A DNA stretch of 60,784 bases from Bacteroidota bacterium. Its GTDB lineage: Bacteria > Bacteroidota > Bacteroidia > JABDFU01. Made by a program: the position numbers and the translations under genes. The notes beneath the pieces are model-generated. The model was given only the letters and a program-made list of their open reading frames with translations, searched no databases and was not told the origin of the DNA. Positions 1-2,405 of the stretch are shown here, in pieces (the first letter of the stretch is position 1; each line of letters opens with the position of its first letter). Where the stretch lies: assembly GCA_016183775.1 (NCBI GenBank), contig JACPDY010000015.1, forward strand, positions 1 through 60,784, written 5' to 3'.

Positions 1-725
1 CCACTAATTTTTTAAGTATCACGTCAAGCTGCGCGGGCGTAACCTGTTGTTTCGCATCACTCAGCGCGACGGCCGGCGTGCAGTGCGTTTCGATCATGAG
101 CCCGTGCATATCCATATCCAATGCTTTCTGCGAAATGTAGGGTATCAGCTCCGTGTTTCCGCAAATATGACTTGGATCACAGATAAGAGGCAGGTCCGGA
201 CATAATGTCCTCAATTCAATTGCAAGCTCCCATTTGGGAGAATTACGGAACGATTGATTATCGTGAGAATGAAACCCGCGATGTATAGCTCCGAGTTTTG
301 TGATACCGGCCTGATTGATACGTTCCAGCGCTCCTATCCATAATTGCAGATCGGGATTGATAGGATTTTTCACAAACACCGGAATATCCACACCCTTCAA
401 CGCGTCGGCAACATCCATTTTTCAAACATTCTTCCACATGCTTTCCATTCGCCACCTCGGTTGCAGTCAACATGCCGGTTTCTTCTTTCACCGTTTTCAT
501 CCATTTCAGGCCAATACTGCCAATGCCTTCAAAAGCATTGGGACGGGTGCGGGGCTTCCATATGCCTGCCCGGAAAATTATATTTTTGTCAATAGCCGCT
601 ATCGCTTTACCTGTTGTCAGCATTTGAGTTTCAGACTCGGCGCTGCATGGGCCTGCGATAATAATAGGGCGTTTTGCACCTTTAAGCCATCCGGATACCG
701 GGGTGATGTTTAATGTAGGTTTCAT
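1..725 (-). pseudogene. aroG: DAHP synthase (probably fused to chorismate mutase), deleted/frameshifted and cut by the window edge
   Basis: The enzyme family condenses PEP and erythrose 4-phosphate in the first step of the shikimate pathway. The N-terminal part (725 down to about 422) has the family opening, including IIAGPCSAE and FRAGIWKPRTRPNAFEG, and runs to HVEECLKNG. The remainder is in another frame (about 420 down to 1): VADALKGVDIPVFVKNP, then GAIHRGFHSHD, DPSHICGN and HGLMIETHCTP. Family members have about 20 residues between these parts, including the IGAR motif that contacts PEP phosphate. Here they are missing and the frame shifts. The downstream chorismate mutase domain expected in Bacteroidota would lie outside the window. 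The gene follows pheA on the same strand, 190 bp away. Either the gene is dead or the assembly is wrong at about 415-425. Identity is certain; status is not. Confidence 0.85.
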
Positions 726-796
726 ATTTATTTGTTTTTAATATTTAGATACTAAGGTTATTTCGAATAAGTATTTTGGTGGGCTTTGGTGTTTTG

Positions 797-834
797 GTGC
801 TTTAGTGGCAATTGGATTTTAGCCACTAAAGCAC
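797..834. repeat. 13-bp perfect inverted repeat between pheA and aroG
   Basis: The arms GTGCTTTAGTGGC (797-809) and its complement (822-834) are separated by 12 nt. No T-run follows on the minus strand, so it is not a standard intrinsic terminator. Similar words (GCCAC-AAA-CAC followed by AACCCGC, and TTTAGTGGCA) recur at 20177-20257, suggesting a degenerate intergenic repeat family. It could also shape the pheA-aroG transcript. Confidence 0.6.
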
Positions 835-915
835 AAAAGCTCCAAACCCGCATGCAAACACCATGTTTTCATCCAAAATATTTTTAAAAAATTTCATATA
901 ATAAGTCCCTGCCTT

Positions 916-1755
916 TTAGTTATTATAACTTGGTATGCTTGCTTTCATATATTCTCCCAATACAGATAGCCCGATCGTTGAACTTTTTATTTGTTTCAAC
1001 GATTGCTGAAGGTTCTCATATTTTACCCACTCAAGATCCGCATGAAAAGAATATTGAGAAGACTCCTCATAAACGGGCACACTCTGTATTTTCGAAAGGT
1101 TCACTCCATTTTGCTGGAAGACATTCAACACTCCCGCCAAAGAGCCAACTTCATGTTTAAGCCGGAAACAGATGGATGCTTTATCAGGGTTCGCAGGCCC
1201 CGAATCACCCTTTGAAAGGATCATGAAACGTGTAAAATTCCGCTTGATGCTTTCAATGTTGGAAAACAACTTCGGCACATTATACATTTCTGAAGCAAAT
1301 TCATTCGCAATGGCTGCGGTATTCCGCAAATTTTTATCACGAATATTTTTCACACAGGAGGCAGTATCCCGCTCCTCAATAATCTTTATATGCGGGAATT
1401 TCTGGAGGAATGTATTGCACTGTGCCAATGCCATTGGGTGTGAATGGATGAATTTCACATCCTCTATCTTAACACCTTCAAGCGCTAATAGATGCAGTTC
1501 GATTTTCAGATATTGTTCACCAATTATGCGGAGCTTATACTCATCAACCAGGTTGTAATTCGACAAAATGCTGCCCGCCACCGAATTCTCTATGGCCAAT
1601 ACCGCATAATCGACGTGATTATTGACGAGTTTTTCGCAACATTCACGAAAGGTATAACACTCGATTGAATCTACCTGCTCACCGTAAAATTTTTGCGCGG
1701 CTATGTCGTGATAAGATGCCGCTGCTCCGAAAATTGCCACTTTAAAATTGCGCAT
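916..1755 (-). CDS. pheA: prephenate dehydratase with ACT domain
   Basis: The 279-aa product converts prephenate to phenylpyruvate, the committed step to phenylalanine, in the cytoplasm. The catalytic PDT domain covers about residues 4-180 and includes AIENSVAGSI (55-64) and the TRF motif at 175-177. A C-terminal ACT domain (about 193-270, GSLAGVLNVF) is the usual phenylalanine-binding regulatory module. The classical ESRP signature reads QSVP here. There is no fused chorismate mutase. The ATG at 1755 lies 13 nt after the T-run of an attenuator, behind a Phe/Tyr leader peptide, so transcription is probably controlled by charged tRNA-Phe (and possibly tRNA-Tyr). The broken DAHP synthase gene follows on the same strand. 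Confidence 0.95.
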   Translation of the reverse strand: MRNFKVAIFGAAASYHDIAAQKFYGEQVDSIECYTFRECCEKLVNNHVDYAVLAIENSVAGSILSNYNLVDEYKLRIIGEQYLKIELHLLALEGVKIEDVKFIHSHPMALAQCNTFLQKFPHIKIIEERDTASCVKNIRDKNLRNTAAIANEFASEMYNVPKLFSNIESIKRNFTRFMILSKGDSGPANPDKASICFRLKHEVGSLAGVLNVFQQNGVNLSKIQSVPVYEESSQYSFHADLEWVKYENLQQSLKQIKSSTIGLSVLGEYMKASIPSYNN

Positions 1756-1768
1756 AATTATTATAGTT

Positions 1769-1797
1769 AAAAAAAAAGTCCCGATGTTATCGGGACT
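1769..1797 (-). terminator. attenuator terminator upstream of pheA
   Basis: On the minus strand a perfect 9-bp stem (AGTCCCGAT / ATCGGGACT, 1789-1797 and 1777-1785) with a 3-nt loop is followed directly by a run of T (1776-1769). No minus-strand gene lies upstream that it could end, because the neighbour at 2031 is on the plus strand. It sits between the leader peptide and pheA, as an attenuator should. Confidence 0.9.
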
Positions 1798-1854
1798 CTC
1801 TCAGATTTAGTTTTTATGTTCATTTACATAAGACTTCCTCTGCGATGTCCCAAC
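1777..1854 (-). promoter_or_regulatory. antiterminator pairing region of the pheA leader
   Basis: The leader-coding segment 1854-1847 (GUUGGGAC) is complementary, with two G-U pairs, to GUCCCGAU at 1796-1789, the 5' arm of the terminator. The two structures exclude each other, which gives the switch. The segment TTATGT-AAATGA-ACATAA around the leader stop codon is a further small inverted repeat. Confidence 0.7.
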
Positions 1855-1904
1855 AGGGCCGCAAAAAAATAAAAGAAGAAGTAATATGTTTTGTTCAGGT
1901 TCAT
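1824..1904 (-). CDS. pheL: Phe/Tyr-rich leader peptide of the pheA attenuator (26 aa)
   Basis: A 26-codon frame starts at ATG 1904 and stops at TAA 1824-1826. Its residues 7-14 are YYFFFYFF (five Phe and three Tyr), followed by AALLGHRRG. A ribosome stalled on these codons when aminoacyl-tRNA is scarce would leave the downstream RNA free. Codons 17-20 contain GUUGGGAC (1854-1847), which can pair over all 8 bases, two as G-U, with GUCCCGAU in the 5' arm of the terminator. That is a textbook antiterminator. The gene symbol is given by analogy with enteric pheL; there is no sequence homology claim. The leader begins about 10 nt after the predicted transcription start. Confidence 0.85.
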   Translation of the reverse strand: MNLNKTYYFFFYFFAALLGHRRGSLM

Positions 1905-1919
1905 TTTTCTAATACCGCA

Positions 1920-1952
1920 CAAATATAACACCTTTTATTTATGTAAAGCAAA
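1920..1952 (-). promoter_or_regulatory. Bacteroidota-type promoter of the pheA leader
   Basis: On the minus strand TTTG (1952-1949) and TATATTTG (1927-1920) match the -33 TTTG and -7 TAnnTTTG elements with a 21-bp spacer. Transcription would start near 1914, leaving about 10 nt before the leader ATG. Confidence 0.75.
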
Positions 1953-2030
1953 TTTATTACAGGGAAAACTATTCTGTATTACCTTTATGTTGCAGCCTGG
2001 TTATATTATTTAACCTCAAAATTATTGAAT

Positions 2031-2393
2031 ATGCCAAAAAAAACCGTTGTTATAGGCGCTTCTGATAATCCCGAACGCTATGCCTACAGGGCTACTATTC
2101 AGCTAAATAAGCATGGTCACCCGGTAATTCCAGTTGGTTTAAAGGAGGGAATGATCGGCACTATTTCCGTACTTAAAGGACAGCCTCTTATTAAAGATGT
2201 TGATACTGTTACCCTGTACGTTGGTCCGCAAAACCAGCCTTTTTGGTATGATTATATACTAAGCCTTAAACCCAAACGCATTATTTTTAACCCAGGCACT
2301 GAAAATCCGGCGTTCGAAAAAATGGCGGCCTCGAAGGGAATTGAAGTGCAGGAGGCTTGTACATTGGTTTTACTGTCGATCGGGAATTATTAA
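2031..2393 (+). CDS. CoA-binding domain protein (Rossmann fold, YccU-like)
   Basis: The product is a small 120-aa single-domain protein of the CoA-binding family. It opens with KTVVIGASDNPERYAYRA, the glycine-rich nucleotide loop typical of this fold, and carries FNPGTENP and a C-terminal QEACTLVLL, where the cysteine is usual in the family. The biochemical role of these small proteins is not settled. A TTG two codons upstream is possible, but ATG 2031 is the more likely start. It diverges from the pheA leader and converges with the aminotransferase gene, whose end is 12 bp away. Confidence 0.85.
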   Translation: MPKKTVVIGASDNPERYAYRATIQLNKHGHPVIPVGLKEGMIGTISVLKGQPLIKDVDTVTLYVGPQNQPFWYDYILSLKPKRIIFNPGTENPAFEKMAASKGIEVQEACTLVLLSIGNY

Positions 2394-2405
2394 AAACAGA
2401 ATGTT

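Follow-up and report, generated by a model that had tools for sequence, protein, structure and literature searches.

The pheA gene of a Bacteroidota bacterium (contig JACPDY010000015.1, whose 60,784 analyzed nucleotides we call the window) is preceded by a leader which, judged from its sequence and from comparison with related loci, is very probably a transcription attenuator of the classical ribosome-mediated type, one that would sense charged tRNA-Phe and tRNA-Tyr. Such switches are textbook knowledge, and we regard this locus not as a new mechanism but as a well-supported new case.

Anatomy of the pheA leader

The minus strand of the window carries every part of such a device, from the promoter through the leader frame, the arms and the terminator to pheA itself:

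1952-1949, minus strand: promoter -33 element TTTG, 21 nt from the -7 element (from sequence)
1927-1920, minus strand: promoter -7 element TATATTTG, of the TAnnTTTG form, giving TTTG-21-TATATTTG (from sequence)
1904-1824, minus strand: leader peptide ORF MNLNKTYYFFFYFFAALLGHRRGSLM plus stop, 26 aa, ATG...TAA (from sequence and comparison)
1889-1874, minus strand: 5' side of the protector hairpin (region 1), overlapping the control codons (MFE fold)
1886-1863, minus strand: control codons 7-14, Y Y F F F Y F F (from sequence)
1855-1839, minus strand: antiterminator arm (region 2), forming 15 pairs with 1805-1788 and starting 7 nt past the last Phe/Tyr codon
1854-1847, minus strand: core of the antiterminator arm, GUUGGGAC, within codons 17-20 (from sequence)
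1845-1826, minus strand: 3' side of the protector hairpin, which encloses the core of the antiterminator arm (MFE fold)
1805-1788, minus strand: region 3, the partner of the antiterminator arm, including the terminator 5' arm at 1797-1789 (from pairing)
1797-1777, minus strand: terminator hairpin, AGUCCCGAU (1797-1789), loop AAC, AUCGGGACU (1785-1777), a perfect 9-bp stem (from sequence)
1776-1769, minus strand: terminator U tract, eight U (from sequence)
1755-916, minus strand: pheA, prephenate dehydratase (Pfam PF00800, E 3.7e-52)
1-725, minus strand: DAHP synthase, the second gene, which runs off the contig start and is fused to chorismate mutase in relatives

An earlier note on this DNA had read a 26-aa frame with YYFFFYFF, an upstream promoter with -33 TTTG and -7 TATATTTG, a perfect 9-bp terminator with eight T, and codons 17-20 complementary to the terminator 5' arm, and had concluded that all parts of translation-coupled attenuation are visible. 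Each of these elements is present at the coordinates listed, and promoter, leader, arm, terminator and pheA were all found. The frame had also been said to end just before the terminator; the order is correct and the adjacency is not, since 26 nt separate the leader stop codon from the terminator stem.

We take TTTG and TATATTTG at a spacing of 21 nt to be the sigma-A promoter form of Bacteroidota. The core of the antiterminator arm, GUUGGGAC, forms 8 bp, two of them G-U, with GUCCCGAU of the terminator, and the pairing grows to 15 pairs when the flanks are included; the terminator itself is part of a fold of -18.4 kcal/mol, and the pheA ATG lies about 14 nt past its U tract. The upstream neighbour, a gene for a CoA-binding protein at 2031-2393 on the plus strand, is transcribed divergently, which means that the terminator does not belong to any gene upstream. 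A second short frame, MNIKTKSERVPITSGLFF (1822-1766, minus strand), begins directly after the leader stop and crosses the terminator. We rejected it as a part of the device, as such frames occur in only 11 of 52 leader loci and at no shared position.

Chance and folding tests in the window

When the 300-nt upstream region was dinucleotide-shuffled 2000 times, an equally Phe/Tyr-rich short ATG frame arose once. The fold of the 160-nt leader RNA is 4.5 s.d. better than those of its shuffles, and 3 of 200 shuffles matched the duplex between the antiterminator arm and the terminator arm. Runs of six consecutive TWY codons are not rare in the genome (67 matches, as compared to 78 in a reversed control), and the weight of the case therefore rests on the assembly of parts and on conservation. 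The single-sequence evidence is modest, and it is the comparison that decides.

Protector pairing in the window, measured between the sequence upstream and that downstream, reached -13.3 kcal/mol against -5.6 kcal/mol in shuffles, with none of 40 shuffles as good. On a narrower measure, the pairing of the arm itself with upstream sequence, the window scored 0.31, which is not above shuffles, whereas the enclosing hairpin is. Even for the free RNA, the antiterminator is the best fold as long as the terminator 3' arm is missing (-32.9 kcal/mol), and once the 3' arm is present the terminator always wins. Static folding of the window leader hence does not separate an on from an off state, so the switch must depend on order and timing.

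Spread of the leader across pheA loci

Loci encoding PF00800 were searched for in the family, order, class and phylum of the source genome. The class set comprised 77 loci (46 with several kb of flank, 30 short ones and the window), and a Phe/Tyr-rich leader was found upstream of pheA in 52 of these Bacteroidia loci, representing 18 of the 29 families sampled; it is missing from about a third of the sampled class loci. Under a strict threshold (at least 6 F/Y among 10 residues, no more than 300 nt away) the leader was called in 46/76 class loci as compared to 1.1% of dinucleotide shuffles, in 0/146 cases ahead of other genes, taken from the window and these loci, and in 0/29 pheA loci of the phylum that lie outside the class. 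As the loci are interrelated, these tallies do not count as independent trials. A scan of genome contigs with the PheA protein returned no relatives. One further locus, L030, rested on a weak call, was judged to carry a false leader and was dropped from the 52.

On the PheA tree the distribution of the leader requires at least 11 gains or losses, compared with 20.5 when labels are shuffled; the leader is thus passed on within broad clades, while some families lack it. In 30/52 loci the TAnnTTTG element occurs no more than 70 nt before the leader ATG, where 4.2 would be expected from shuffles. In two loci, L055 and L060, there are two tandem Phe/Tyr-rich frames upstream of pheA (MLQTRFFFGYYYFYAAA and MVPTQQVFFTYGYYFFYLKKPARCCQC in L060), which may represent a pair of attenuators arranged in series.

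All 52 leaders contain both Phe and Tyr codons; how many F and Y there are, and in what order, varies freely from one family to the next. Trp was considered as a third sensed amino acid and rejected: W occurs in 19 of 53 leaders but makes up 1.8% of residues, which is too little. The free variation of the run bears on whether the peptide itself, rather than its codons, could be the sensor. A Phe/Tyr-rich chain might stall the ribosome on binding a free amino acid or another ligand, in the manner of TnaC, with the terminator responding to that event and not to uncharged tRNA; such a dense aromatic run is indeed an unusual nascent chain, and the same RNA anatomy would be expected. Arrest of this type, however, needs fixed residues, which the families do not share, and an arrest caused by excess would switch this anatomy in the wrong direction. 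That the codons are those for the products of the pathway is what tRNA sensing predicts, and we consider peptide-mediated arrest highly improbable.

Pairing, spacing and co-variation of the arms

The looked-for pairing of the paired arms, which the earlier note had proposed as a check together with the Phe/Tyr-rich frame in homologous pheA leaders, was positive in the 18 class families. In 50 of the 52 leader loci, the segment following the run can form a duplex of 8 or more pairs with the 5' side of the terminator. Shuffled leaders rarely reach such energies: in 33 of 53 loci (L030 included) at most 5 of 200 shuffled leaders gave an equally good duplex energy. Sought over the whole stretch as far as the terminator, the arm nonetheless starts 7-13 nt past the last Phe/Tyr codon (10th-90th percentile; median 10), and the front edge of a ribosome stalled on the last control codon is expected at about this distance.

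Each arm prefers the terminator arm of its own locus over those of other families, with a median of 4% of foreign arms being as good. The arms co-vary between families, such that the anatomy is conserved and the sequence is not:

Family f40: GCCGGGACT/AGTCCCGGC
Family f54: GTCAGGATTGTG/TACAATCCTGAT, TTGAGACTTTGTA/TATAAAGTCTCGA and AAACGAGGTTGATAT/ATATAAGCCTCGTTT
Family f57: GGCAGGAGTTTGTAT/ATATAAAGTCCTGCC
Family f63: ATGAGAACTTCATGT/ACGGGAGTTCTCAT
Family f15: CGGGAGGGTAAAATCATT/AATGAAGCCCCTCCCG

This pattern also weighs on the idea that the short frame encodes a functional small hydrophobic protein and that the terminator is a coincidence. Aromatic-rich small peptides can be membrane active and the frame is widespread, but outside the F/Y run no conservation is evident between families, the end points of the frame vary, and what its 3' half conserves instead is base pairing to the terminator. 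We give such a protein even less credence than peptide-mediated arrest.

The remaining parts of an attenuator also recur among the relatives. Across the leader loci, the arm and the sequence after it pair with the upstream sequence at a median of -10.6 kcal/mol, as compared to -5.1 kcal/mol in shuffles, and an intrinsic terminator (a hairpin with a U tract) lies between the leader and the first gene in the window and in the other leader loci. The sequence marks of a leader attenuator are thus in place: an ORF with clustered codons, a terminator, a spaced antiterminator arm and a protector hairpin. The distance from the stop codon to the end of the arm has a median of 4 nt in the relatives, and in the window the stop codon lies 16 nt further on. 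In many relatives, with the stop codon within a few nt of the arm, a ribosome at the stop codon would therefore cover the arm, whereas in the window the enclosing hairpin must do the work.

Proposed mechanism of attenuation

From the parts, their conservation, their spacing and their co-variation, all of which can be read in the sequences, we infer a start site, ribosome stalling, an order of folding and a response to both amino acids, as follows. RNA polymerase would start some 15 nt ahead of the leader ATG, with a ribosome then beginning to translate the 26 codons. When charged tRNA-Phe and tRNA-Tyr are both plentiful the ribosome would clear codons 7-14, upon which 1889-1874 could pair with 1845-1826 and enclose the antiterminator arm; alternatively, a ribosome at the stop codon would keep the arm from use. 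With the arm sequestered in either way, the terminator at 1797-1777 would form and transcription would stop some 14 nt short of pheA. A shortage of either tRNA would make the ribosome stall on codons 7-14 and cover the 5' side of the protector, while the arm at 1855-1839, immediately in front of the ribosome, would be left free. The free arm would then capture the nascent 5' side of the terminator, allowing read-through into pheA and the genes that follow.

Relation to known leaders

Neither the window leader nor those of 20 related loci contain a match to any Rfam family (release 15) that reaches the cut-off; among these 20 loci Rfam gave one match, a Flavo-1 motif in L015 that falls outside the leader. 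Phe_leader (RF01859; E. coli pheL) aligns to the window over the full model length (1-125) with 31.8 bits (E 0.0012), not reaching the gathering score of 55. The two share a leader peptide, a protector, an antiterminator and a terminator ahead of pheA, but belong to different phyla, and the window leader would work like Phe_leader while being a non-member by covariance-model score. A sub-threshold match to the Flavo-1 RNA (1784-1859, minus strand; 24.2 bits against a cut-off of 42, E 0.0033) overlaps the antiterminator and terminator region and may reflect a shared GGGAC...GUCCC pairing.

These searches bear on whether the terminator could be under some other control, by an RNA-binding protein, a T-box, a riboswitch or Rho, with the leader frame merely coating the RNA. 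Protein regulators as yet unknown would be compatible with the sequence. The window leader, however, has no T-box or riboswitch match in Rfam, its best sub-threshold matches are the Phe_leader attenuator and Flavo-1, and the control codons fit the pathway in 52/52 loci, so that we hold this possibility to be as slight as that of a small functional protein.

Within the same phylum, a close parallel to the attenuator proposed here is Bacteroid-trp (RF01692), which likewise has runs of pathway codons in a leader peptide ahead of an aromatic biosynthesis operon, but with Trp codons and the trp operon. The pheA leader gives no match to this family and the window leader has no Trp codon. Bacteroid-trp was listed for Rfam in 2010 (Weinberg 2010, PMC2864571). 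In Flavobacterium psychrophilum, a transcribed and structured 5' region of pheA, conserved in Flavobacteriaceae and left unexplained, was termed an original cis-regulatory element and found in other genera of that family, and clues to leader-peptide attenuation were noted upstream of amino-acid operons (PMC9723704). The main-text passages considered here differ from our account in making no reference to Phe/Tyr codons, arms or a class-wide spread (PMC9723704). Loci of family f54, which includes L015 with its Flavo-1 motif, carry the leader. As far as the main text of that study allows, the F. psychrophilum element is probably the same device. The earlier note had left open whether this class was already described in the lineage, and the answer is a partial one: there is the F. 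psychrophilum element, unexplained in that main text (PMC9723704), and Bacteroid-trp as the Trp counterpart. In openly readable main texts we found no description of a Phe/Tyr leader across Bacteroidota.

Operon context and state of this copy

Counting the loci that are placed on the tree and have sufficient flank, the leader is present in 31 of the 35 where a DAHP synthase follows pheA and in 0 of the 8 where none does. Independent contrasts between presence of the leader and an adjacent DAHP synthase are concordant in every informative pair, though the pairs are too few for significance (median p 0.25). In L067 and L036 the DAHP synthase/chorismate mutase follows pheA directly, and in L059 and L043 pheA is followed by an aminotransferase, prephenate dehydrogenase and DAHP synthase/chorismate mutase. 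A leader with both Phe and Tyr codons fits an operon that contains DAHP synthase/chorismate mutase and, in some loci, the aminotransferase and prephenate dehydrogenase. To our knowledge, E. coli PheL has Phe codons and no Tyr codons, and the enterobacterial pheA operon has no DAHP synthase.

The DAHP synthase gene in the window has a frameshifting deletion of 56 bp relative to its relatives, in the middle of the enzyme with the junction near 413, which reflects either a pseudogene or an assembly fault at the contig end. A 28-nt inverted repeat (782-849; 86% complementary, 12-nt loop) lies between pheA and the DAHP synthase gene and is similar to intergenic repeats seen in Bacteroidota. The source genome's own family and order contain only congeners, and no pheA was seen in any of the five (56-85% complete). 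When window 1-2400 is set against the congeners L117, L119 and L120, the argD-dacB-glnA neighbourhood is kept in them, with pheA and the CoA-binding gene absent beside argD; in congeners with sequence past argD, other genes follow it. The difference may reflect a gain or a loss of the operon, or a chimeric contig end, and this copy may be decaying or misassembled.

A Trp-rich (WWW) leader, MTNKLNNNWWWLSR, precedes trpE in the same genome (L122, 1243-1199, minus strand; G000:C10), scoring 39.2 bits against Bacteroid-trp (RF01692), under the cut-off of 49. A second DAHP synthase lies beside trp-like genes on contig C149, the neighbours having been identified by reading the sequence, and the trp operon here seems to include a DAHP synthase of its own. 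No HisG was found in the genome.

Implications

Few studies have dealt with amino-acid control in Bacteroidota, and it is from Proteobacteria that the textbook attenuator is best known. Our results provide a sequence-supported Phe/Tyr attenuator in 18 families of Bacteroidia, which probably explains the conserved 5' element of Flavobacterium pheA. We further lean, with less assurance than for the attenuator itself, towards a class-wide dual sensor, in which interspersed Phe and Tyr codons gate the Bacteroidia pheA-DAHP synthase/chorismate mutase operon through a fixed ruler of 7-13 nt. If this is true, control of entry into the shikimate pathway would be divided between two leaders, the Phe/Tyr one and the Trp one that precedes the trp operon. 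The rule for the spacing between control codons and arm offers a simple search for more leaders, and also a direct test of transcription-translation coupling in this phylum.
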